A DNA stretch of 21,144 nucleotides from a virus, in IMG/VR virus record IMGVR_UViG_3300017989_000502, positions 1-21,144 of that record; one strand, given 5' to 3'. Below the pieces are notes generated by a model that worked only from the letters and a program-made list of their open reading frames with translations, was not told the DNA's origin and did no database searches. How positions within the stretch are numbered: the stretch's first letter is position 1; each line of letters opens with the position of its first letter. This document shows, piece by piece, positions 1 to 10,716 of the stretch. The position numbers and the translations under genes were made by a program.

Positions 1-117
1 AACGTTAATAGATGACATATCGTTTGATTCTGAAGAGAAAGAGGACATTTCTCGCCTTAGGCGCTTGTTACTTGGGTTCACAGACACTGCATCCCGGGAA
101 TACACACCGGAAATTGA
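1..117 (+). pseudogene. Frameshifted upstream part of the methyltransferase
   Basis: No single frame carries the methylase through this stretch. Frame 2 gives LIDDISFDSEE from about base 5, which resembles the acidic stretch that follows the catalytic motif in these methylases. Frame 3 gives FLALGACYLGSQTLHPGN and then LLSGAGTG, like the LxPGG...YVAS segment of the fold. Frame 1 takes over from about base 145 with LEFGQAFVVVGW. Two single-base shifts, near 45 and near 145, would join these into one protein. This may be real decay or sequence error near a contig end. The alignment is by eye and from memory of the family. Confidence 0.45.
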
Positions 118-573
118 AACTGCTTTCAGGTGCTGGAACTGGAGTTTGGGCAAGCATTTGTTGTTGTTGGGTGGCGACTCCACGAAACGCTGGTGTGGGT
201 CAAGGACTCTATGGTCCTTGGGCATTCTGATTACCATTACAAACACGAGCCCATTCTGTATGGTTGGAAGGGCAAGAACCGAAGTTGGTATGCCGGTCGT
301 GATCAGGTATCAGTGTTTGAGGTCCCGCGGCCGAAGCGGAGCGCCGAGCACCCAACCATGAAACCGACCGAACTAGTACAGGCGCAGTTGCAGAATAGCA
401 CAAAGCGCGAGGATATTGTATATGACCCCTTCCTCGGCTCCGGCACCACCCTCATCGCCTGCGACAACCTCAACCGCCGCTGCCGTGCCGTGGAGATTTC
501 GCCGGGGTACGTGGCGGTGGCGCTACAGCGATGGGCAGACCTGACCGGCCGGGACCCGGAGCGGGTCAGTTAG
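118..573 (+). CDS. DNA methyltransferase, C-terminal part (N4/N6, beta-class layout)
   Basis: The product would transfer a methyl group from S-adenosylmethionine to adenine N6 or cytosine N4 in DNA, probably protecting phage DNA from host restriction. Visible in order are LHETLVWVKDS and SDYHYKHEPILYGW, then HPTMKP, then the SAM-binding motif I DPFLGSGTT, and an ending like ISPGYVAVALQRW. This order, with motif I near the C-terminus, fits the beta class; the catalytic DPPY-type motif is missing because it would lie upstream. The frame is open only from base 118, and a GTG at 130 is the first possible start, but homology appears to continue upstream in other frames. It stops 16 bases before the small terminase gene, a common place for phage methylases. 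Assignment to the family is firm; target base and specificity cannot be read. Confidence 0.85.
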   Translation, partial: NCFQVLELEFGQAFVVVGWRLHETLVWVKDSMVLGHSDYHYKHEPILYGWKGKNRSWYAGRDQVSVFEVPRPKRSAEHPTMKPTELVQAQLQNSTKREDIVYDPFLGSGTTLIACDNLNRRCRAVEISPGYVAVALQRWADLTGRDPERVS

Positions 574-589
574 TACTTGGGCTGGTACG

Positions 590-1135
590 ATGCCTGGAAA
601 CACCGGGAAACGGCGATCGGCGTCCCAATTGTCGCGGGACCGGCGAGCAATCGCCGAATATTACCTCAAAGGCTGGCTTCAATCCGCCATTGCGGCGGAA
701 TTGGGTATTTCCCAGCAGACGGTTTCAAATGATCTTCGGGCGCTCCAGGTCCAATGGGAGAAATCCGCGCTCCGTGATTTCGACACAATGCGGGGCGAGG
801 AATTGGCAAAGATCGACAACCTGGAGCGGGAATATTGGGCGGGTTGGTTGCGGTCAGGCAAGAACGAAGAGACGCTGGTCAAGAAAGCCAAAGATGGGAA
901 AGGGACCGAGGCAATTAAAACCTCGAAGGGCCAGGCGGGTGACCCGCGCTTTTTGGCCGGTATTGAGCGGTGCATCGAGCGTCGTTGCAAACTACTCGGC
1001 ATTGACGCGCCCGCACAACACGAGCACCGTGTCCGGTTTGGTGTAGCGGAATGGCGCGAAGAACGCGCGGCCCGATTGGCGGCAATCGAAAACGATGACC
1101 TTATGGAAAACGGAGAAAGCGCTCTGGGCGGCTGA
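590..1135 (+). CDS. terS: Terminase small subunit-like HTH protein
   Basis: Probable small terminase: it binds phage DNA at the packaging start and hands it to the large subunit. The 181-residue product carries a helix-turn-helix at about residues 24-52, reading QSAIAAELGISQQTVSNDL. A charged helical middle (RDFDTMRGEELAKIDNLE) follows, and then a conserved-looking GDPRFLAGIERCIERRCKLLGI segment near residues 122-144. This layout is typical of small terminases found directly before the large subunit, as here, where the two genes overlap by 41 bases. No strong ribosome-binding site precedes the ATG at 590. The alternative is a plain DNA-binding regulator, but position and length favour TerS. 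Confidence 0.75.
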   Translation: MPGNTGKRRSASQLSRDRRAIAEYYLKGWLQSAIAAELGISQQTVSNDLRALQVQWEKSALRDFDTMRGEELAKIDNLEREYWAGWLRSGKNEETLVKKAKDGKGTEAIKTSKGQAGDPRFLAGIERCIERRCKLLGIDAPAQHEHRVRFGVAEWREERAARLAAIENDDLMENGESALGG

Positions 1136-2564
1136 GTTCATTGATCTCCCGGAAGCGGCCGCCGCGTCAGACGCGCGGTGGGAGCCGTTCCAGATTGGTT
1201 ACCTCAACAATCCTTCACGTTTTGCGATCGACGTTAAAGCGCGTCAGATTGCCTGGTCGTTTACGGCCGCTGTTGACGCGGTGACGGACGGGGTGCTCAA
1301 CCCGGACACCGCGCACATTTTTACTTCGATCAATCTTTCCGAAGCTAAAGAGAAAATCCGATACACGGCCGCCATCGTCAGGGCAATTGACTGGCGGGTG
1401 CGACCGGACATTATACGGCAGTCGTCAACCGAGATTGAATTCCTGAATGGGTCCCGTTTCATTTCTCACCCATGCCGGCCGCCCCGTGGGAAACCACGCG
1501 CGAGAATCTACCTTGACGAAATGGCCCATTATAAGGACGGGTTGGACCGCGAGATTTACACGGCCGCGCTCCCGGCGACAACCAAGGGGGATGGATATGT
1601 CAGAATCGGGTCGTCACCGCTGGGGGCGAAAGGGCTATTTTGGGAAATTGCAACCGAATCTATGCGGGCATGGCCCGGGTATGTCCGGCGCTTTATCCCA
1701 TGGTGGAACGTCCGGGCGTTGTGCGTTGATGTCAAGATGGCCCGGATGGTTGAGCCCCGTATGTCCACCAGCGAGCGTGTCCATACATTCGGCACTAGGG
1801 CGCTCCGGGAGATTTTCGAGAACATGTTCCTCGAGGATTTCCAGCAGGAGTATGAATGTGCCTGGGTTGACGAGGCGACGGCGTGGATTACATGGGAAAC
1901 GATAAAGAAGAACCAGGACGCCGATCTCATTTGGTACCATGCAACAACGGTTGACGAGGCGCTGGCGCTGATCCCGGTCATTATTGACGACATTCAAACC
2001 GGCCGGCTCGAATCGTCATTCTTGGCTGGGCTAGACATTGGCCGCAAACGGGACCTGACCGAATTCATGATGCTGGGCAACACAACCACCGGTAGATTTC
2101 CGCTCCGTTTTAGTGTATCATTAGACCGTGTGGAGTATGACGACCAGGAGCGGTGTTTTGTTGAATTGCTCAATCGGTTGCCAATCGCAAATTGTCTGAT
2201 TGACGAGAGCGGAATTGGGGCACAATTGGCGGAGAACATTGCCAACAAAACCGGGAAGGCAGAGGGCGTGACGTTTACAAATGCCAATAAAGAACTTTGG
2301 GCGGTCGAAGCGCGAATCCAGGCACAGCGTGGGAGAACCCCGCTACCAGTCGATCGGGATATCGCATATCAAATTCACTCAATCAAAAAGACAACGACGG
2401 CCGCAAAAAACAACGTGTTCGACACAGAGCGAAACGAGAAGCACCATGCTGACAAGTTTTGGGCGTGGGCGTTGGGCGTTTGGGCTGGAAGCGGAAGCGG
2501 TGCAACATGGGGGGACCTGGAAAATCTAGGGACCGTGAGCGGTTATGAATCGAGGTGGGCATAA
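1095..2564 (+). CDS. terL: Terminase large subunit (ATPase-nuclease, Mu gp28-like)
   Basis: Packaging motor: the N-terminal ATPase drives DNA into the prohead and the C-terminal RNase H-like nuclease cuts the concatemer. In 489 residues the expected parts are present. A Walker A-like KARQIAWS lies at 48-55 and Walker B RARIYLDE at 135-142 (D141, E142). A coupling motif YVRIGSSPLG is at 168-177. Nuclease acids are seen in GLDIG (D314), CLIDESG (D370) and HHADKFWAW (D453). The P-loop is unusual: where most ATPases have GK and Mu-type proteins have RQxG, this reads RQIAW. It overlaps the small terminase by 41 bases and its stop shares one base with the portal ATG, so the three genes are probably translationally coupled. 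Assignment is secure. Confidence 0.93.
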   Translation: MTLWKTEKALWAAEFIDLPEAAAASDARWEPFQIGYLNNPSRFAIDVKARQIAWSFTAAVDAVTDGVLNPDTAHIFTSINLSEAKEKIRYTAAIVRAIDWRVRPDIIRQSSTEIEFLNGSRFISHPCRPPRGKPRARIYLDEMAHYKDGLDREIYTAALPATTKGDGYVRIGSSPLGAKGLFWEIATESMRAWPGYVRRFIPWWNVRALCVDVKMARMVEPRMSTSERVHTFGTRALREIFENMFLEDFQQEYECAWVDEATAWITWETIKKNQDADLIWYHATTVDEALALIPVIIDDIQTGRLESSFLAGLDIGRKRDLTEFMMLGNTTTGRFPLRFSVSLDRVEYDDQERCFVELLNRLPIANCLIDESGIGAQLAENIANKTGKAEGVTFTNANKELWAVEARIQAQRGRTPLPVDRDIAYQIHSIKKTTTAAKNNVFDTERNEKHHADKFWAWALGVWAGSGSGATWGDLENLGTVSGYESRWA

Positions 2565-4054
2565 TGAAGTTTGGTGAAACGGGAACACAGGGGCTCGAGG
2601 AATACGATGGGTTCATTTCTGAGGCATATAACACCAAGTTGTTTTGGCCGGGGTGTTACGACGATTACAACCGGATTCGAAGGAGCGATCCAGAAATAAC
2701 GCTTGCCCGCCAGGGATTTATCACCATGGCCCGCCAAGTGACTTTGGACGTTGAACTCCACGACGATGCGAACGACGCTGAGCGGAAATACCAGGATTTC
2801 TTGCGCGAGGTCCTGGACGACATCGACGGCGGCCCGGGTGAATTGCTCGAAGCCGCCGTGTCATATGTGCCGTTCTTGGGTTGGGCATGGTGGAACGCGG
2901 TTCCTGGATTACGCCGCGCAGAATGGCGGCCGCCAGGCGGTGACGATTGGCGCTCAAAATATAATGACAACCGGATCGGCATTCGGCGCTTTGGTTGGCG
3001 TGATCATTCCAGCTTCCATAAATGGGATATGGACAAGCGCGGCCGTGTGCGTGGTTTGGTTCAGATTGACGGGGACCGGAAAAAGACAACCATTCCCGCC
3101 CGGGAGAGCCTTCACTTGACTTTCGGGGACCCGTACAACCCCGAGGGCATGGCGTTACTTGAAGCCATTTGGCGGCTGGAGCGGATCAAATATGGACTGG
3201 AGATTATCCAGGGCATCGGGTACGAACACGCCGCGGGGCATCTGTCGGTCACGGCCGACCGCAAACTTGGTGACGGCGACGAAACCGCGATTGCCCGCGC
3301 GGCCCGAAACATCCTCACGGCTCAGGAAGGGAATTATGCAACATGGCCGGCCGGTTTCACGGGCGAGGTAAAAGACATTCCATTTGCGGCTGGCGCGTCA
3401 ATTCTTGAGGCGATCCGGTATTATGGGATTCTCAAACTCCAGGTATTTTTTATGCAATTTATCTCGGTCGCAACAACGGCCGGGACGGGGGCATATTCGG
3501 CCCACAGCGACAGCCGTGAAGCGGGAATCGATGCGTTCAACGGAATGATGAAGGGATTTGCAAAACAAATTGAGAACCAAATCGGCGGGCGAATTTGGGA
3601 ATGGAACAAGGGCGCATTTCCCGGGGTTGTGAACCGGCCGCGCATTGTCGTTACAGCGGTTGAGAAAACAATACCGCTAGAGACGCTTGGCGCGTTCATG
3701 CAGGCAATTTCCGCGATCGTACCGCTCGACGATGACGACTTGATAGCCGTGCGGCGGAAGTCTCAATTCCTACCAGAAACGTTGGCCGACGATGGAGCAC
3801 CGAAACCAGAGCCTGACTCGGACCCGGACCCGGCCGGTGACGACCCGGACGATGATCCGCTTGGCGAATTCGCCTCGCGGCCAGTCGTTCTTGGACCAGA
3901 CGAACATCCGACAAATGTAACATTTGACGCCGCCATAACACCGGAGGACATCGAGGGCGCCTTTCGCCGGTTTGGGTCGTGGGCGAAAGAAGAGGACCCG
4001 CTTCTGTGGGGGCTGTTGAACGCCAAGATTGAGAAGGGCGATGCGACTGATTGA
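2564..4054 (+). CDS. Portal protein (DUF935 / Mu gp29 type)
   Basis: Forms the dodecameric ring at one capsid vertex through which DNA enters and leaves. The 496-residue length and position after the large terminase fit the Mu gp29/DUF935 portal group. Family-like segments include an early SDPEITLARQ (41-50) and VSYVPFLGWAWW (99-110), a central GDPYNPEGMALLEAIWRLER, and a long helical EAGIDAFNGMMKGFAKQIEN that would line the channel. The C-terminus near residues 410-436 is a low-complexity Asp/Pro-rich stretch. I chose ATG 2564 over GTG 2555 because GAGGTG at 2552-2557 lies 6 bases ahead of the ATG and the ATG overlaps the terminase stop by one base (TAATG). Confidence 0.85.
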   Translation: MKFGETGTQGLEEYDGFISEAYNTKLFWPGCYDDYNRIRRSDPEITLARQGFITMARQVTLDVELHDDANDAERKYQDFLREVLDDIDGGPGELLEAAVSYVPFLGWAWWNAVPGLRRAEWRPPGGDDWRSKYNDNRIGIRRFGWRDHSSFHKWDMDKRGRVRGLVQIDGDRKKTTIPARESLHLTFGDPYNPEGMALLEAIWRLERIKYGLEIIQGIGYEHAAGHLSVTADRKLGDGDETAIARAARNILTAQEGNYATWPAGFTGEVKDIPFAAGASILEAIRYYGILKLQVFFMQFISVATTAGTGAYSAHSDSREAGIDAFNGMMKGFAKQIENQIGGRIWEWNKGAFPGVVNRPRIVVTAVEKTIPLETLGAFMQAISAIVPLDDDDLIAVRRKSQFLPETLADDGAPKPEPDSDPDPAGDDPDDDPLGEFASRPVVLGPDEHPTNVTFDAAITPEDIEGAFRRFGSWAKEEDPLLWGLLNAKIEKGDATD

Positions 4055-4706
4055 CACAATGCGGGCATTTGTGCTCGAATTGGCCGAAACCGGCTCGAAG
4101 GGATATCGCTGGCTAGTAACGGCCGCGCGGTATCAGGATATCGCTACCGGCCGGTTTGTGGCTGAAAAGACGGTTCTTCGACGTGTTGATAAAATGAATG
4201 ACGAGAAAGTTGTCTCGGTGAAAATCGGTGCAATAACCGATCGTTTCATAAAGGACAAGGGTTATAAAATCCAGAACTGGCAAGAGGACATGAAGCGTCA
4301 GTTGAAGGATGCATTCATCATAAACGCCACCATTGGCCGGGGCGGCAAGAACGCAATGACGCCCCAGGACTGGGGGCGCGTTGGCGGCCGGCTGGCTTAC
4401 GAATACGGCCGGTTAAATAACTTTGCGGCCCAAATCGCCAAGGGTGAGTACTCGCCCGAATACATCAAGAATCGGGCGTCATTATACGCGGGCGGGCCGC
4501 GTACCGCTTACTTTGATGCGTTGACGCGGGCCAAGGCAGGCGCTGGCATGTCCGAGGAGCGGCGCATATTGGAGCCGGGTGCGGACCATTGCGGGGACTG
4601 CCCGGATTTAGCCGCAATGGGCTGGCAACCAATCGGGACCCTGCCAGAGCCGGGAGTTGGTACGGAATGCGGGCATCGCTGCCGGTGCTCGAAGGAATAT
4701 CGGTGA
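4041..4706 (+). CDS. Minor head / head morphogenesis protein with cysteine-rich C-terminus
   Basis: Likely a minor capsid component sitting next to the portal, in the place of Mu gp30/SPP1 gp7 relatives. The 221-residue product has RYQDIATGRFV near residues 30-40, a segment recurrent in phage head proteins, a helical middle, and a C-terminus with HCGDCPDLAAMGW followed by LPEPGVGTECGHRCRC. C184, C187, C210, H212, C214 and C216 look able to bind zinc, as suggested for the CPxC...CRC end of the gp7-like family. It is shorter than full gp7 proteins, so it may be only the C-terminal type. ATG 4041 overlaps the portal by 14 bases and follows AAGGG; a TTG at 4029 and ATG at 4059 are alternatives. 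Confidence 0.7.
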   Translation: MRLIDTMRAFVLELAETGSKGYRWLVTAARYQDIATGRFVAEKTVLRRVDKMNDEKVVSVKIGAITDRFIKDKGYKIQNWQEDMKRQLKDAFIINATIGRGGKNAMTPQDWGRVGGRLAYEYGRLNNFAAQIAKGEYSPEYIKNRASLYAGGPRTAYFDALTRAKAGAGMSEERRILEPGADHCGDCPDLAAMGWQPIGTLPEPGVGTECGHRCRCSKEYR

Positions 4707-4936
4707 CAGACATTTCCAACGCGGCCCAGTCGCTGGGTAGAACGCTCGACCGTCTCCCGCGCGGATGGCGGTATATGATCGCGGTTGACCGGCCGGCGAG
4801 CGGTACAATGCGGGCCGAGATTATTCAAAAAGAGGAGATTGATGGGAGAGCTAATAATAACCAAGACGACGAAGAGCGACATGACCTGGGGCAAATTTCG
4901 GAAGTTACCGATCGTTGTCCGTGCGATCAGGTTTGA
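4703..4936 (+). CDS. Small hypothetical protein overlapping both neighbours
   Basis: No family recognised. A GTG start at 4703 overlaps the upstream stop as GTGA and has GAAGGA at 4691-4696 six bases ahead, a good coupled start. The 77-residue product begins with a helical ISNAAQSLGRTLDRLPRGWR stretch, then a beta-like YMIAVDRPASGTMRAEI, and ends in a very polar tail (RANNNQDDEERHD) with two late cysteines. That tail is encoded in the 95 bases that also encode the start of the next gene, which probably explains its odd composition. The N-terminal part looks like a real folded protein. Function is unknown; membership in the late operon suggests a virion or assembly accessory. Confidence 0.55.
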   Translation: MTDISNAAQSLGRTLDRLPRGWRYMIAVDRPASGTMRAEIIQKEEIDGRANNNQDDEERHDLGQISEVTDRCPCDQV

Positions 4937-5078
4937 AGTCCCGTTCCGTGTTGAAACGCGCGAAGGCTGGATGCGTGGCAATGCGGGCGATTGGCTAATA
5001 GAGGGCGTGGCTGGCGAGTTGTATCCATGCGCTCATGATATTTTCATTCGAACATATGGACCAGTTGATGAAAGCTAA
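4842..5078 (+). CDS. Small conserved phage protein (GDWLIxGVxGExYPC family)
   Basis: A 78-residue protein with FRKLPIVVRAIRF early on, REGWMRGNAGDWLIEGVAGE in the middle and YPCAHDIFIRTYGPV at the end. This combination is a familiar small phage protein of unknown function, found in many siphophage and prophage genomes, often with the core PGDWI...GExYPC...IFxxTY. The fold is probably a compact beta barrel; no enzyme motif is visible. ATG 4842 is preferred because AGAGGAG at 4831-4837 lies four bases ahead; an upstream ATG at 4785 in the same frame lacks this. It lies among head genes, and its role is not established. Confidence 0.75.
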   Translation: MGELIITKTTKSDMTWGKFRKLPIVVRAIRFEVPFRVETREGWMRGNAGDWLIEGVAGELYPCAHDIFIRTYGPVDES

Positions 5079-5367
5079 ACGGCGCAAATTGCAACGGGAT
5101 CACGTTTGGGGGATCGACCGGTACACGGCGAGCCCAGCATTCGGGGATTTGACGGTACCAGTGATATTCCTCTGGTCGAACCCGGAAGGACAACAGAGCC
5201 CAGCGACCATGACGGGGGCGCTGAATCATGGAACGGAGATAATTGTCAAACGCCATAGGGCGATTGACGGCGAGCCGTGGTACCGCGTCGAAAACGGGGC
5301 GTTGGGTCAGAGCGGCTGGTGTTCCGGGAAATTGCTCAAAAAGCGCGGTGAGAAGTTATTCGGTTGA
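5068..5367 (+). CDS. Small SH3-like domain protein
   Basis: The 99-residue product has a basic N-terminus (MKAKRRKLQRDHVW) and ends with an SH3b-like pattern: HGTEIIVKRHRAIDGEPWYRV followed by GQSGWCSGKLLKKRG. The spacing of GT..IV, the dG..WYrV strand and the GxxGW..g.LL end is typical of bacterial SH3 domains, which bind cell-wall peptides or other proteins. There is no catalytic domain and no signal peptide, so it is not an endolysin by itself. It overlaps the preceding gene by 11 bases; ATG 5068 has GGA seven bases ahead, and ATG 5035 is possible but less likely. Its TGA stop lies inside the -35 element of the promoter described next. Confidence 0.6.
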   Translation: MKAKRRKLQRDHVWGIDRYTASPAFGDLTVPVIFLWSNPEGQQSPATMTGALNHGTEIIVKRHRAIDGEPWYRVENGALGQSGWCSGKLLKKRGEKLFG

Positions 5368-5392
5368 CACGAGTAGAAATGTGCTGTAAACT
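5364..5392 (+). promoter_or_regulatory. Sigma70-type promoter for the head maturation/capsid genes
   Basis: TTGACA at 5364-5369 matches the -35 consensus exactly. A 17-base spacer leads to TAAACT at 5387-5392, matching four of six bases of the -10 consensus. Transcription would start near 5399. It lies in the largest gap of the head region, just before the protease, decoration and capsid genes, which are needed in large amounts. This is a sequence match only. Confidence 0.6.
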
Positions 5393-5406
5393 AATCCTTG
5401 TCTGAC

Positions 5407-5425
5407 GTTTTTGTCTCGACAAAAC
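5407..5425 (+). promoter_or_regulatory. Leader hairpin 1
   Basis: TTTTGTC at 5409-5415 is followed after two bases by GACAAAA at 5418-5424, giving a short A/T-rich stem (a four-base CTCG loop is the realistic form). It lies just after the predicted transcription start and so would be at the 5' end of the protease-capsid mRNA, where it may stabilise the transcript. It could also be an operator palindrome. Confidence 0.35.
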
Positions 5426-5441
5426 TGGACGTTCGATCTCG

Positions 5442-5488
5442 CACAAAGCTGGCCGAACCCGTGATGGGTTCGGCCGTTTGTGTGTTTT
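5442..5488 (+). terminator. Leader hairpin 2, terminator or attenuator-like
   Basis: GGCCGAACCC (5451-5460) and GGGTTCGGCC (5466-5475) form a perfect 10-bp stem around the loop GTGAT. The stem extends by CACAAA (5442-5447) pairing with TTTGTG (5477-5482) across a small internal loop. A T-rich run GTGTTTT follows to 5488. The SD of the protease gene comes directly after, so the hairpin may end upstream transcription, attenuate the promoter at 5364, or protect the mRNA 5' end. Confidence 0.6.
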
Positions 5489-5498
5489 AGGGGTAGTT

Positions 5499-6572
5499 AT
5501 GGAATCAAGGATTCTGTTGGTTGAATTGAGCGGGGACGGTAGACCATTTGATGGGCTCACAACGTCCGCCCGCAGGGGGTCCCCATTCGTTGACATGTTC
5601 GGGCGGGAAATCGAAATTTCGCTCGACGATTTGCGCGAAATGGAAAGCAACACCAGGGCCGTCATTGAATCGACGGCGACCGAATCCGGCGAGATTGTTG
5701 GCCTACCCATTGACGTGCGGGATCACGATAAGGGGGACGGCGCTGGTTGGATTGTTGGCGTTGAGCTGGCCGACGACGTGCTCCGGTTCATTCCCAAATG
5801 GACCGAGATTGGTCGTGAATTGATCGAGAAGGGTATTCGTAGATTATTCAGCGCTACGGTTGACATGACCAGAAAGGTCGTCATCGGTGGAACGCTGACG
5901 AATTGGCCGGCTGTGCGGTCCGCCGATGGGCGGTTATTGTTGCGGCCGATTGAATTATGCAACCTCAACCCGGTTGCACCAAAGCAGGAGGGAAAACGGA
6001 TGGGTGAGCAAGTGAACTTCGCCGATCTGCCAAAAGCGGACCAGGCACGGTTGCGGTATGAAGCCGGTCAAACGGTCCGCGCTGAGTTTGGTTTGACGCC
6101 AAAGGGCGACCCGGGCGGGTCAGACTTTGCGGCCGAATTGGTGGCGGAAATGCGGCAAAAAGCACGGGATGACGCACGGGCGGAAATGCAAGCCGAAATG
6201 GCGGCCCAAAAACGCGCGGGTGAAATCTCGGAGTTCTGTAATCGGATTACTGGTGGAACCGACGAGACGCCCCACGGTTTGTCCATTGAAGCGGATCGGT
6301 TGGAAAAGATTCTCACCGCGGTACCAGATGCGGAACGAGCAGAACTCCAAACCGTTCTCGGTGAAATCGTCGAGAGCGGGGTTGTCAATTTCCAGGAAGA
6401 GGGACATGCCCAGCATATGGGCGGCAAGAGCGACCTTCCCGAATGGGCTGAATTGTCGATCCGCAAATTTGTTGCCAAGGGCAACAAGGTTGAGGACTGG
6501 TTCCAAATCAACCCCGATCTAATTGGAAGCGCTGACGATTACGATTTGAGCGCTTTTGTGAAGGAGGAATAA
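5499..6572 (+). CDS. Mu I-like head maturation protease with C-terminal scaffold
   Basis: Serine-type prohead protease that removes the scaffold during capsid maturation. In 357 residues the N-terminal half (about 1-150) holds the Mu-I family pattern: SPFVDMFGREIEI, GEIVGLPID followed by DHDKGDGAGWI, WTEIGRELIEKGIRRLFSAT, and GGTLTNWPAVR. H76 (or a nearby His/Asp) and S118 are the best catalytic candidates. From about residue 168 the protein is helical and charged, with a coiled-coil-like stretch at 209-246, typical of a scaffold. ATG 5499 has AGGGG five bases ahead. An in-frame start at 6000 with an excellent SD suggests that the scaffold is also made alone. The next gene begins one base after the stop. 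Confidence 0.85.
   Translation: MESRILLVELSGDGRPFDGLTTSARRGSPFVDMFGREIEISLDDLREMESNTRAVIESTATESGEIVGLPIDVRDHDKGDGAGWIVGVELADDVLRFIPKWTEIGRELIEKGIRRLFSATVDMTRKVVIGGTLTNWPAVRSADGRLLLRPIELCNLNPVAPKQEGKRMGEQVNFADLPKADQARLRYEAGQTVRAEFGLTPKGDPGGSDFAAELVAEMRQKARDDARAEMQAEMAAQKRAGEISEFCNRITGGTDETPHGLSIEADRLEKILTAVPDAERAELQTVLGEIVESGVVNFQEEGHAQHMGGKSDLPEWAELSIRKFVAKGNKVEDWFQINPDLIGSADDYDLSAFVKEE
5986..5992 (+). promoter_or_regulatory. Internal ribosome-binding site for the nested scaffold
   Basis: AGGAGGG lies seven bases ahead of the in-frame ATG at 6000, inside the protease coding region. It is among the best SD sequences in the window, which supports use of the internal start. Confidence 0.65.
6000..6572 (+). 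CDS. Nested scaffold protein (internal in-frame start)
   Basis: ATG 6000 is in the protease frame and has a near-perfect SD, AGGAGGG at 5986-5992, seven bases ahead. This is stronger than the SD of the full-length protease. The 190-residue product would hold only the scaffold part: FADLPKADQARLRYEAGQTV, a long helix with ARDDARAEMQAEMAAQKRAG, and an acidic C-terminus ending in FVKEE. The arrangement matches phage Mu gpI/gpZ and lambda C/Nu3, where an internal start supplies excess scaffold over protease. The SD and frame are seen directly; the separate product is inferred. Confidence 0.65.
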   Translation: MGEQVNFADLPKADQARLRYEAGQTVRAEFGLTPKGDPGGSDFAAELVAEMRQKARDDARAEMQAEMAAQKRAGEISEFCNRITGGTDETPHGLSIEADRLEKILTAVPDAERAELQTVLGEIVESGVVNFQEEGHAQHMGGKSDLPEWAELSIRKFVAKGNKVEDWFQINPDLIGSADDYDLSAFVKEE

Positions 6573-6573
6573 A

Positions 6574-7029
6574 ATGGCGGACTTGACAAAGGACGCACCG
6601 CTTCGGTTTCTTGGTGATCCGATTATCGAGGAATGGATTCTCGACAATTCGGCGGCACAGACTGTATACCGCGGGCAACCGGTCATTATTGACCAATCTG
6701 AGGACACCGCCTACGGTCGCGGTTTCGTTGACGCTACTGTTGTAGCGGCCACCGACGTTTTTCTCGGGATCGCTCTTGAGGGTTGCACCGTTGCGACCAC
6801 GGACACCGAGACGGACAACAAAATCAAACTTGCCGCGCGTGATTCGATCGTTGGTTTCAAGTCAACTGTTTTCTCGGTTGCTGATCTTGGCAAGACGGTA
6901 TACATGAGCGACAGCGGAACACTCTCGACCACGGCCGGCGACAATCCGCAAATCGGCAAATTGGTTGACGTTAAGGACGGTTACGCTTACGTTCAATTGA
7001 CCGCTCCGCAGGTTTGCACCGGAGCATAA
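6574..7029 (+). CDS. Capsid decoration-like protein (DUF2190-like)
   Basis: A 151-residue, beta-rich protein between the protease/scaffold and the major capsid protein, the usual place of the head decoration (cement) protein. The pattern fits DUF2190-like decoration proteins: ATDVFLGIALEGCTV, a middle IKLAARDSIVGFKS, VADLGKTVYMSDSGTLST and an ending with NPQIGKLVDVKDGYAYVQL. Such proteins trimerise on the capsid surface and stabilise it. AAGGAGG at 6561-6567 lies six bases ahead of ATG 6574, suggesting strong translation. No signal peptide or enzyme motif is present. The N-terminus (residues 1-30) is not family-like to my eye. Confidence 0.7.
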   Translation: MADLTKDAPLRFLGDPIIEEWILDNSAAQTVYRGQPVIIDQSEDTAYGRGFVDATVVAATDVFLGIALEGCTVATTDTETDNKIKLAARDSIVGFKSTVFSVADLGKTVYMSDSGTLSTTAGDNPQIGKLVDVKDGYAYVQLTAPQVCTGA

Positions 7030-7047
7030 AAGAGGGGGTATTGAAAA

Positions 7048-7944
7048 ATGATTTCTGGACAAACACCGAAACACCTACTGGCCGCCGCGCGGACTGGGTT
7101 TCTGGACGGACTCAAAGCCAAAAGTTACCCATGGCAACGCGTCGCTGGCACGTTTGACATGACGGCCCGTGAAGTCGATCTTGTCGATCTTGGGGCTCCG
7201 CCCATGCCGCTCGAAGTGACCAAGGGTCACGAAATGCAAGACTGGATCGAGAAATCGATCGCGGTGAAACCGAAGGACTGGGGGATCAAAGTCGGCATTT
7301 CGCGCAATGCGCTGGCCGACGACCAGACCGGAAACCTCGAGGCGAAATTCAACCAAGCCGGGTCGAATTTCCAGAAACACATAAACAAACTTGTGTTTCA
7401 GGCGCTGAATGGCGGGGACGGTACCACCTATGGACTCTGTTACGATGGCGGGAATTTCTTCCAGAATTCCCACATTGATGACGGGGCGGATTACCAGACG
7501 GCCCAGGACAACATGTTTGGGCTGGCTCTTTCGCTCACGAACTTCGATACCGTGATGGTTGCGGCCCAGGCATTCAAAGACGACCGCGGCGAATATGCCG
7601 ATTTCGACTACGATCTTTTGGTCTGCAATCCGGCGCTGAACATGACCGCTCACAACATTGTCAAAAATGTTGAGGATTACGAGACGGCCAACCGGGCAGA
7701 GAACGCATACAGCGGCAAGGTCGCGCATTTGTCGAGCCCGCACCTTGACGCCGCGGCATGGCTCCTGGTCGCGTCCAACGAATCGATCAAGCCGATCATT
7801 GTCGCTATGCGGGAATGGCCGAACTTGACCTCTACCAAATGGGACCCGGACCAGCCCGAGGGCGGTATGCACTATTTCTACTTCAACGCCCGTTATGATG
7901 TGTTCTACGGTGACTGGCGACTAGTCGCAATGGGGAACACGTAA
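7048..7944 (+). CDS. Major capsid protein (Mu gpT-like, HK97 fold expected)
   Basis: The main shell protein. Its 298 residues are close to Mu gpT size. Family-like segments are PWQRVAGTFDMTAREVDLVD, then KDWGIKVGISRNALADDQTG near residues 76-95, then FFQNSHIDDGADYQTAQDN, DFDYDLLVCNPALNMTAHNI, and the end YFYFNARYDVFYGDWRLVAM. AGAGGGGG at 7031-7038 precedes ATG 7048 by nine bases. Unlike HK97, there is no N-terminal delta domain fused to it; scaffold is supplied by the protease gene. The next gene starts in the last base of the stop. An opposite-strand open frame of 265 codons over the gene is a codon-bias shadow. Confidence 0.88.
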   Translation: MISGQTPKHLLAAARTGFLDGLKAKSYPWQRVAGTFDMTAREVDLVDLGAPPMPLEVTKGHEMQDWIEKSIAVKPKDWGIKVGISRNALADDQTGNLEAKFNQAGSNFQKHINKLVFQALNGGDGTTYGLCYDGGNFFQNSHIDDGADYQTAQDNMFGLALSLTNFDTVMVAAQAFKDDRGEYADFDYDLLVCNPALNMTAHNIVKNVEDYETANRAENAYSGKVAHLSSPHLDAAAWLLVASNESIKPIIVAMREWPNLTSTKWDPDQPEGGMHYFYFNARYDVFYGDWRLVAMGNT

Positions 7945-8226: not shown

Positions 8227-8757
8227 ATGACAGAGCGAAACAAGACTTTTATCGGTTGGGCGATCGTGGCAATAGCCATGATCGTCAGCGCTTATTTCGG
8301 GGTGACGTACCCGATCCCGGACCCGCCCGAGATTTTGGCAGAGCCGGTTGAGACGGAACAGGTCGAAACGCTCGGAACGACAAACTTCACTGACCTCGAA
8401 TTGACCGGCGATCTGACCGTTGGCGATGACGCAACCATAACCGGCGATCTCGTTGTTGATGACGTTTTTGGTATTGACGAACTTTCGAACACCGACACGG
8501 GCACAACGACCTTGAACCCCGTCAGTACATATTACCAAGTTGCACCGGTAACCGTTCTGACGCTCACGCTGGGTACAACCGGCGTTGAGGTTGGCGACCT
8601 TTTGATTGTTCACAATACGGTAGCAACGACAACTACGATCGTTGATACCGGGGCGACGGTTGGCGGTAGTGATGTGACGCTGGCGGCAAACGACCTCGCC
8701 GTTTTCATTTATGGTAATTCCAAATGGATCGAGGTCGCGTCACCGGACAATAGCTAA
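8227..8757 (+). CDS. Membrane-anchored, stalk-like hypothetical protein
   Basis: The 176-residue product begins with a short basic segment and one hydrophobic helix at residues 8-27 (FIGWAIVAIAMIVSAYFGV), with no clear cleavage site. It is thus either a membrane anchor or an uncleaved signal. A Pro/Glu linker (29-48) follows. Then come short beta repeats at 57-77, ELTGDLTVGDDATITGDLVV, like those of trimeric fibre stalks, and a C-terminal beta domain rich in Thr, with VGDLLIVHNTV and LAANDLAVFIYGNSKW, the latter common in phage tail tips. AGGGAG at 8216-8221 precedes the ATG. A membrane helix is unusual for a gene placed between capsid and connector. It may be a surface-displayed moron or a virion fibre. 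Function unknown. Confidence 0.6.
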   Translation: MTERNKTFIGWAIVAIAMIVSAYFGVTYPIPDPPEILAEPVETEQVETLGTTNFTDLELTGDLTVGDDATITGDLVVDDVFGIDELSNTDTGTTTLNPVSTYYQVAPVTVLTLTLGTTGVEVGDLLIVHNTVATTTTIVDTGATVGGSDVTLAANDLAVFIYGNSKWIEVASPDNS

Positions 8758-9278
8758 TGAAACGAGCCGCCCTGTGTGCAGAGCAATGGCGGCGGGTTGT
8801 GCGGCGGGTGGCAGGGGTCGAACCGGTCCTCTCGCCACCCGTTTCTTTTTCCGCATTTGATCCGGGATTCCTTGAGGGTTCTGATTTTGTATACATCAAA
8901 TTGCATGGGAAACCGAAAGAGCCATACTGGTATAACGCGGACTGGGAGACGGTCTGCAATGCGTACCAAATCGCGGCCGCCGATTTACGCGGGGCGGTCG
9001 TTGTTGTTGGGGCGTGTCATGTCCCGAATAGCCCAATGCTCGACGCGCTCAAATCAACGGGTGCGCGGGCGGTCATCTATGGGGACGGCGAGAACTATTC
9101 GATCCCTGGGCGGGTTGGCGGTGCTGACCGGCTGGCGCTATATGTTCGGTACGGGTTGACCTTTGGCATGAGCCCGCTTTTCGCGTTCTGGTTTGCGCGT
9201 ATGCGGTTCAAATTCAAACCACGGAATAAGGTCACTTTGGACACGTTGAACTTTGAGATTCTGGAGATTAAACAATGA
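8757..9278 (+). CDS. Caspase/CHAT-like protein of unknown role
   Basis: The 173-residue product looks like a small caspase-hemoglobinase (CHAT/C25-like) fold. A beta strand ending in His-Gly (DFVYIKLHG, H50) is followed 37 residues later by a strand ending in Ala-Cys (GAVVVVGACH, C87). Then come PMLDALKSTGARAVIYGDG, matching the 'laaGArAVig' strand after the catalytic Cys, and a closing RYGLTFGMSPLFAFWFARMR helix. H50 and C87 would be the catalytic pair. The N-terminus AEQWRRVVRRVAGVEPVL is not part of the known fold. The ATG overlaps the upstream stop (TAATGA). Proteins of this look occur in phage contigs without known function, but I cannot confirm catalysis. It may be a protease, an inactive homologue or a host-interference factor. 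Confidence 0.55.
   Translation: MKRAALCAEQWRRVVRRVAGVEPVLSPPVSFSAFDPGFLEGSDFVYIKLHGKPKEPYWYNADWETVCNAYQIAAADLRGAVVVVGACHVPNSPMLDALKSTGARAVIYGDGENYSIPGRVGGADRLALYVRYGLTFGMSPLFAFWFARMRFKFKPRNKVTLDTLNFEILEIKQ
8805..8851 (+). terminator. Terminator-like hairpin inside the caspase-like gene
   Basis: CGGGTGGC (8805-8812) pairs with GCCACCCG (8834-8841), and AGGGG (8813-8817) pairs with CCTCT (8828-8832), with one G-T pair and one bulged C. The T-rich run TTTCTTTTTC follows at 8842-8851. It lies 48 bases after the start codon, so termination here would reduce expression of the caspase-like gene. Confidence 0.4.
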
Positions 9279-9667
9279 TTCAGATAGTGGGACCAATTAC
9301 GACGGGTGAAGCGGCTGGTGCGGACGGGTCCGCAACCAATAACGAGAACACAACGCAACCGGTAGTAGGCAAATTGCTCGGGGTATACCTAAAATACAAC
9401 GACTCGCCACCGGCCGGAACAACTGATATCGTTCTGAAAACAAAGGGAACGTCACCAAGTCCACCAAGCGAAACGCTTCTCTCTATTGCGAACGCGGCCA
9501 CAGACGGCTGGTTCTATCCACGTACTCAGGTCAATTTGAATTCGGACGGGTCCGCCATTGCCAACGAATATGACATTATGCCGATTCATGACATTCTGAA
9601 CTTTGCGATCACGGGGGCCAATGCCGGGGATTACGTAGAGGCTTGGCTTATGCTGGAAACCGGTTAG
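9275..9667 (+). CDS. Hypothetical beta-rich virion protein
   Basis: A 130-residue protein whose ATG overlaps the upstream stop by four bases (ATGA). Segments such as VYLKYNDSPPAGTTDIVLKT, LLSIANAATDGWFYPRTQV and GANAGDYVEAWLMLE have the look of a compact beta-sandwich and resemble uncharacterised proteins that sit just before connector genes in uncultured siphophages. No catalytic motif, signal peptide or membrane helix is seen. It may decorate the capsid or neck. Confidence that it is a real gene is high; function is unknown. Confidence 0.6.
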   Translation: MIQIVGPITTGEAAGADGSATNNENTTQPVVGKLLGVYLKYNDSPPAGTTDIVLKTKGTSPSPPSETLLSIANAATDGWFYPRTQVNLNSDGSAIANEYDIMPIHDILNFAITGANAGDYVEAWLMLETG

Positions 9668-9676
9668 GGAGAACCA

Positions 9677-10189
9677 ATGGCGATTGACGACAATAGCTAC
9701 GGGACATTGGCCGGGGTTGGTGCCATGGTTCCAATGTACAGCGATGACGGCGCTTTTACGGCGTCTGTTCGTCCGTCGAGCGGGACGGTGGAAGCGTGGA
9801 TCGATCAGGTTTCCTCGTTGTTGAACGTGATGCTCAAAAAGGAACGGTTCACAATCCCGGTAGAGCAGGCGGACGCCGTTAAAACGTTGACGTTGTTTGT
9901 AGAGACGGAAGTAGCGGACCTCGTGCTCGCCGTCAATGGGTCCGGCAGGTTCGGCCCCAACGCCAAGGATAAGAATGTCCGCCAGCGCGGGCGGTGGGCG
10001 ACCATCCTGGACGACATAAAGGACTTTGTTGAATCTATGGCGTTTGGACTCGAAGAAATGGGCGTTGAACGGCCGGAAACGGACTCAGACGGGATTGGGT
10101 CGCGTGACCAGGACGAGGGCGGTGATGACACATTCCCCATTTTTCAGCGTAAGGGATTCGGTAATTCGTTCCACGACTGGGATTCGTGA
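9677..10189 (+). CDS. Head-tail connector (adaptor, gp6-like)
   Basis: Likely the adaptor ring under the portal. The N-terminus YGTLAGVGAMVPMY followed by RPSSGTVEAWIDQVSSLLNV (about residues 8-52) and the helical ERFTIPVEQADAVKTLTLFV match the all-helical gp6-like/DnaT-like connector family. The C-terminal third (from about 125) is acidic and disordered-looking, ending in FPIFQRKGFGNSFHDWDS. AGGGAG at 9666-9671 precedes ATG 9677. The position before the neck and tail terminator genes supports the call. Confidence 0.65.
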   Translation: MAIDDNSYGTLAGVGAMVPMYSDDGAFTASVRPSSGTVEAWIDQVSSLLNVMLKKERFTIPVEQADAVKTLTLFVETEVADLVLAVNGSGRFGPNAKDKNVRQRGRWATILDDIKDFVESMAFGLEEMGVERPETDSDGIGSRDQDEGGDDTFPIFQRKGFGNSFHDWDS

Positions 10190-10716
10190 TGGCAACGCCA
10201 GCAACACTATTTTCGATCGAAGGACGGCCACCGTTCAGGGACATGTCCGGCCGGTTCGTCAAAGCGTCCGACGAATTGCTCCAGGATCGACGCGATCTTA
10301 TTCGTGTCCAGGGGCGGCGATTTCTCGAACTTGCCCGCGCGGAAGCGCCAAGAGGAAAGACGGGGAAATTTCGCAGAGGGTTGCGTTGGCGTTCGTTTGT
10401 CCAGGGCGATTCGATCGGGTTCAAGGTCACAGACCCGCAACCGTTAGGGCTGTGGATTCGTGAGGGTACGAAACCGCACGCGATCCCGAAACCACCGCGG
10501 CCGCCAGGTAAGGCGCTTTATTTCTATTGGCCCAAAGGTCCCAATGGCGCTGGCTGGTATTCGTTTTTCAATGTTTGGCATCCGGGCACCAAGCCGAATC
10601 GGTATCCGGGGCGGGCATACCGGCGCTGGTTACCAGGCGCCAGGAAGGACTTGGCGAGAATCGGTGACAATTTCTCGCGGACATTGCGCGGCAAAGAAAA
10701 GCAGGTAATCGGGTGA
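10189..10716 (+). CDS. Neck / tail completion protein (HK97 gp10-like)
   Basis: The 175-residue product resembles HK97 gp10-like and related virion morphogenesis proteins that complete the head-tail junction. It has helical RRDLIRVQGRRFLELARAEA, then PRGKTGKFRRGLRW, then WIREGTKPHAIPKPPRPPGKAL, and HPGTKPNRYPGRAYRRWL near the end. The paired KPHxI and HPGTKP segments are characteristic. It is strongly basic. ATG 10189 overlaps the upstream stop by one base; GTG 10186, in the same frame, is an equally coupled alternative that adds one residue. Confidence 0.7.
   Translation: MATPATLFSIEGRPPFRDMSGRFVKASDELLQDRRDLIRVQGRRFLELARAEAPRGKTGKFRRGLRWRSFVQGDSIGFKVTDPQPLGLWIREGTKPHAIPKPPRPPGKALYFYWPKGPNGAGWYSFFNVWHPGTKPNRYPGRAYRRWLPGARKDLARIGDNFSRTLRGKEKQVIG

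Follow-up and report, generated by a model that had tools for sequence, protein, structure and literature searches.

Genomic context of the CHATL gene

The window, i.e. the whole stretch of DNA analysed here, is a record of an uncultured bacterial virus and comprises 21,144 bases. On its plus strand, positions 8757–9278 encode a protein of 173 amino acids that, as originally predicted, is small and stands alone. We coin the name CHATL for this caspase-fold (C25/CHAT-like) protein; the assignment is based on the open reading frame, a family of 33 members, an AF2 model and structure matches in the PDB. The reading frame starts with ATG, ends with TGA and overlaps both neighbours, by one nucleotide with the preceding gene (TAATG, 8755–8759) and by four with the following gene (ATGA, 9275–9278), and hence lies within a tight operon. 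No promoter or terminator specific to CHATL was found above chance. The motifs LHG (residues 49–51), GACH (residues 85–88) and GARAVI (residues 102–107) are located exactly where the original prediction had placed them. The LHG motif contains the predicted catalytic histidine H50 (8904–8906, plus strand), the GACH/ANCY motif the predicted catalytic cysteine C87 (9015–9017, plus strand).

The gene had been described as part of a capsid-connector block, and its neighbourhood agrees with this description. The major head protein encoded upstream (7048–7944, plus strand) is Mu gpT-like (PF10124, E = 1.1e-24; phrog_371, E = 7.2e-29), and downstream of CHATL a neck-like gene (10186–10716) is indicated by a weak PHROG match (E = 0.013). 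The phage also encodes its own head maturation protease (5478–6572, plus strand), a Mu I-like protein with two weak matches (PF10123, E = 0.0013; phrog_328, E = 0.0044). This gene is separate from CHATL, and its orthologue in relatives precedes the head gene. Directly before CHATL lies a fibre-like gene (8227–8757, plus strand), directly after it a small conserved gene of 130 amino acids (9275–9667, plus strand) with orthologues in loci L011, L012, L014, L038 and others. Positions 130–573, at the left edge of the window, encode the C-terminal part of a DNA methyltransferase-like protein (DPFLGSGTT, recognised by eye). The proteins encoded by an IMG/VR contig of 7,787 bases (L005) match those of the window start (1–7787) exactly up to the head gene, with slight divergence at the contig end.

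The CHATL family and its conservation

As sole query, the CHATL protein of the window finds no relative in Pfam, PHROGs, the PDB, IMG/VR patterns, GTDB, phages or plasmids. The family was reached via the major head protein, which leads to two loci in which the following gene shows 41% (L008) and 32% (L009) identity to CHATL. Alignments A2 and A3 yielded more members from IMG/VR and from three MAG contigs; the label is Anaerolineales for two of these and Deltaproteobacteria for the third. The family as recovered comprises 33 distinct members, namely the 26 rows of alignment A4 and seven more reached through the head protein. Judged from the MAG contigs, the host of at least part of the family is likely a member of the Chloroflexota (Anaerolineales). 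The members scanned have no significant match in Pfam, PHROGs, NCBIfam or PADLOC, and no match for two CHATL relatives or two partner proteins was found in named phages. CHATL is a phage family that previously had no name.

Alignment A4 has 17 invariant columns, including L49-H50 and C87. The original prediction had proposed the conservation of H50 and C87 as a check, and both residues are kept in 33 of 33 members. Close pairs have a dN/dS of 0.2–0.37, indicating purifying selection (the pair L032/L033 is near-identical and hence uninformative). Given 33 distinct homologues, the invariant residues and these ratios, we regard CHATL as a real gene. Position C-2, two residues before the catalytic cysteine, is alanine in 28 of the 33 phage members. 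A divergent branch (L078, 3355–3870; L079, 5904–6416) keeps H50 and C87, carries threonine in place of N113 and glutamate at C-2, and adjoins fibres with a lipobox.

The invariance of the dyad argues for an active enzyme. One of the roles suggested originally, an inactive scaffold, is disfavoured for the same reason, and we consider a caspase-fold protein that only scaffolds or binds to be the most improbable of the readings weighed here. It would fit that G51, the residue beside the histidine, is kept in 29 members and replaced in four, and that activity is so far a prediction; against it, members with only 31–40% identity still retain both H50 and C87.

Predicted fold

The window protein as a single sequence gives an AF2 model with a pLDDT of 38.8; the family alignment is needed to solve the fold, and with A4 the model reaches a pLDDT of 93.9 and a pTM of 0.91. 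The first half of the model consists of β1 (3–8), α1 (9–19), β2 (24–26), α2 (36–39) and β3 (44–48), followed by H50. The middle part comprises a small hairpin (57–68), α3 (69–73), β4 (81–84), followed by C87, α4 (93–99) and β5 (105–108), and the C-terminal part three helices (122–135, 140–152 and 158–164) and β6 (167–170). Peptidases of clan CD are defined by a parallel sheet of strand order 2-1-3-4 with helices α1–3 (PMC4357240). In the model, the β-α order of CHATL is that of caspases, and H50 after β3 and C87 after β4 take the positions of the clan CD dyad, in agreement with the strand order proposed originally.

Foldseek matches of the model include SAVED-CHAT (E = 2.8e-6), DdvA, Csx29, TPR-CHAT, separase and gingipain. 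Structural alignment with VIA-align gives Z-scores of 14.4 for DdvA, 13.5 for TPR-CHAT, 13.4 for the gingipain RgpB, 13.0 for Csx29, 12.7 for SAVED-CHAT, 11.4 for separase, 10.1 for MALT1 and 9.8 for caspase-7. Caspase-haemoglobinase structures are thus the best matches of the model, spanning 147–160 of its 173 residues with Z-scores of 9–14. The structure prediction and Foldseek search that had been suggested as tests bear out the fold originally assigned by eye, with CHAT proteins and gingipain among the top matches. Flavodoxin and kinase rows in Foldseek were rejected as generic α/β matches. A weak Pfam match to a PA domain (E = 0.037) and weak PDB sequence matches to IMPDH (E = 0.041), ankyrin/ILK and KAS III were rejected as chance, as they are inconsistent between alignments and contradict the fold.

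Relationship to C25 and CHAT proteins

A profile search with A4 also identifies larger proteins in Anaerolineales-related genomes (two of three MAGs). Across the class, the profile matches in 26 of 298 genomes, one of which also holds the phage copy. Most of the Chloroflexota host relatives (22 of 25) are assigned to Peptidase_C25 by Pfam; in the two examined, TPRs precede the CHATL-like region. These relatives share with CHATL the pattern SPP...NLHG...WYG...EACYG...GADLLG...ALxxAK. Their C-2 residue is mostly glutamate (EAC), whereas that of phage CHATL is mostly alanine. At both loci read for this TPR and C25-like family of Chloroflexota (L042, 1006–3447, minus strand; L043, 13–2424, plus strand), a similar gene comes next (LGFHYFPD.../LGIGFSYFPD...), possibly forming a two-gene host system.

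Comparison of profiles with hhalign aligns A4 with the Chloroflexota TPR-C25-like family over 152 columns (E = 2.7e-25) and with CHAT domains of the same class at E = 3.9e-8 and a probability of 95. In both alignments, H50 and C87 fall on the catalytic residues, the cysteine on LSAC of CHAT and EACYG of the C25-like proteins. Because of the profile matches and the aligned dyads, we conclude that CHATL is homologous to clan CD, with C25-like and CHAT proteins as distant relatives, beyond a mere likeness of fold. By Foldseek, VIA-align and hhalign, it shares both fold and dyad with CHAT proteins. We note that CHATL is nonetheless outside Pfam C25 and Pfam CHAT, being below both profiles and a single subdomain. 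The C25 profile (PF01364) matches neither the window protein nor any of 11 family members scanned, and the CHAT profile (PF12770) matches neither the window protein nor the members scanned, such that the similarity is one between profiles only. The two-subdomain (A and B) catalytic domain of C25 is absent: CHATL is one caspase-like unit that takes up the whole chain of 173 residues.

The adjacent fibre gene

The gene preceding CHATL encodes a fibre-like protein of 176 amino acids that consists of an N-terminal transmembrane helix, a beta-rich shaft and a C-terminal Phage_depo_C beta-sandwich (PF25692, E = 1.9e-5). The predicted transmembrane segment or signal anchor spans residues 8–26 (8248–8304, plus strand; Kyte-Doolittle mean 2.18), with a net charge of +1 before and -5 after it. 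This membrane-anchored gene, a constant partner of CHATL, was missed in the original prediction. Of 25 informative loci, 24 have a fibre-like gene with an N-terminal hydrophobic helix and a beta-rich shaft next to CHATL, either before or after it, and Phage_depo_C is found in several of the adjacent fibre proteins. In locus L037, a radical-SAM-like gene (6048–7004, recognised by eye) lies between fibre gene and CHATL; the contig of L031 ends too early to show the partner neighbourhood. Among loci reached through the head protein rather than through CHATL, with at least 1.2 kb downstream, a transmembrane fibre lies within 1 kb in 14 of 14 loci with CHATL versus 10 of 46 without it (Fisher p = 1.1e-7, phylogeny ignored).

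According to the positive-inside rule, all 34 partner-type proteins examined are predicted to have the N-terminus inside and the C-terminus outside, and five fibres of CHATL-bearing loci have a recognisable lipobox. Whether CHATL is present or not, membrane-anchored fibre-like proteins (lipobox or signal anchor) are encoded within head operons of phages, an odd place for exported, structural-looking proteins. A juxtamembrane motif of the fibres (YQEMS / LGTTHF) was considered as a CHATL-specific cleavage site and is not claimed as such. YQxMS-type motifs occur in CHATL-bearing loci only; other fibres of these loci have the generic shaft start in common with CHATL-lacking loci, and no cleavage motif exclusive to CHATL-bearing fibres is established.

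Distribution across head modules

Wherever a head gene can be recognised, CHATL comes either directly after it or after the fibre. At least four unrelated head modules carry CHATL downstream of their major capsid gene, and it co-occurs with gpT-like (phrog_371), HK97-type (phrog_10), phrog_3990 and protease-fused (phrog_133/4523) head proteins. On the head-protein tree, at least three to four gains or losses are needed. Given these events and the several unrelated head proteins, we conclude that CHATL follows the fibre and not the capsid. In one relative without CHATL (L011, 5891–6565), a protein of 224 amino acids, α/β in appearance, occupies the slot after the head gene.

The distribution bears on a second role suggested originally, namely maturation. 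In favour of a protease that would act on the capsid, the scaffold or the neck proteins, CHATL immediately follows the gene for the major head protein in most loci. However, CHATL is not the sole candidate prohead protease, as the window and its relatives have the separate Mu I-like gene (5478–6572 and orthologues). In addition, CHATL accompanies several unrelated head proteins, and 46 of 60 relatives that share the head protein lack it. Head or neck maturation is therefore disfavoured and, in our estimate, improbable, if marginally less so than an inactive protein.

A further possibility is a moron-like cassette whose two products, CHATL and the membrane-anchored fibre, would target the host cell (superinfection exclusion, killing of the infected cell or counter-defence) and not the virion. 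The protease would cut a host protein or be triggered by a signal, with the surface fibre as sensor, decoy or effector. The predicted export of the fibre, in several cases with a lipobox, and a patchy cassette that crosses capsid types are in line with this explanation, as are the CHAT proteins found in 41 of 60 genomes of the likely host class and a CHATL-bearing MAG contig of 287 kb that is consistent with an integrated prophage. Yet overlapping start and stop codons couple CHATL to the expression of the head gene, with no promoter or terminator of its own beyond chance; PADLOC gives no defence match, and no known effector is recognised next door. As regards a gasdermin-type pair, CHATL has no PADLOC match, and the partner has a transmembrane anchor and in several loci Phage_depo_C. 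We regard action on the host cell as unlikely, though less so than the two roles above.

Proposed function

Ahead of all others, and still somewhat short of an even chance, we place the reading that CHATL is an active minimal clan CD cysteine peptidase and a dedicated processor of a phage surface protein, most likely the neighbouring fibre, rather than a head protease. CHATL would equal a C25/CHAT-type catalytic subdomain that lacks the usual partner domains, and would be made late, along with the head proteins. It may cut the neighbouring fibre close to the hydrophobic N-terminal anchor or immediately behind it, and the cut would release or mature the fibre. We infer peptide-bond cleavage, with the fibre as main substrate, from the invariant dyad and from the constancy of the partner, as substrates of CHAT proteases are often encoded by neighbours (PMC9729208); Craspase, for example, cuts the neighbour-encoded Csx30, reportedly after Leu407 (PMC9729208). 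The residue preferred at P1 may be neutral or hydrophobic and not basic, since C-2 is alanine in most phage members as opposed to glutamate in most C25-like host proteins.

Two observations count against the fibre as substrate. Transmembrane fibres occur without CHATL at 10 loci, and, because the anchors are oriented N-in/C-out and some have a lipobox, the fibre ectodomain should be exported. As CHATL lacks a signal and probably stays in the cytosol, contact between the two proteins might be limited to the time before translocation or to lysis. The more specific proposal, a phage protease of caspase/gingipain type that processes an adjacent membrane-displayed fibre, with both genes travelling as a mobile pair between unrelated types of capsid, is put forward with more reserve, as a tentative idea.

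The pairing of CHATL with a fibre suggests an unrecognised protein-cutting step in these viruses, which would be distinct from head maturation. If confirmed, CHATL would provide a new protease for phage assembly or host interaction, and caspase-fold enzymes could be studied in a minimal form. Because the protein is small, its fold is predicted with high confidence and there is one obvious candidate substrate, its function can be tested directly.

Comparison with known systems

Prokaryotic caspase-fold proteases have been studied chiefly as defence, toxin or virulence proteins. A survey from 2015 seems to record no C25 peptidases in viruses (PMC4357240). The CHATL family consists of stand-alone, minimal caspase-fold proteins that are encoded in structural operons of phages, keep the dyad intact and have a fibre gene as constant partner.

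The C25 peptidases (gingipain R, RgpB; PF01364) and the TPR-C25-like proteins of Chloroflexota share with CHATL the caspase-haemoglobinase catalytic subdomain and the LHG...C dyad; RgpB superimposes on the model over 159 residues (Z = 13.4, rmsd 2.7). CHATL differs in being a single subdomain of 173 residues without TPRs, N-terminal subdomain A or signal. Nearly all members lack the glutamate at C-2, and no scanned phage member reaches Pfam C25. The CHAT proteases (TPR-CHAT/Csx29 of Craspase and SAVED-CHAT; PF12770) have the same fold (Z = 13.5, 13.0 and 12.7), an aligned dyad and a pairing with a neighbouring gene. Unlike them, CHATL stands alone, is far shorter than the Pfam profile (289 positions), has no sensor domain, is below Pfam detection and is located in phage head operons instead of defence loci. 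Viral proteins with a caspase-like predicted fold are also found in BFVD (A0A8S5MXG5 from a phage, A0A1P8DJ94 and giant virus C14 caspases); with 8–15% identity and mostly 264–385 amino acids, they are a different family by sequence. By its description in the literature, YabG, a spore-coat processing protease for which clan CD has been proposed (PMC12445089), is an analogue of CHATL. It is likewise a His-Cys enzyme of clan CD type and is dedicated to processing the proteins of a large assembled shell, although it has arginine at P1 and acts in sporulation, not in a phage.
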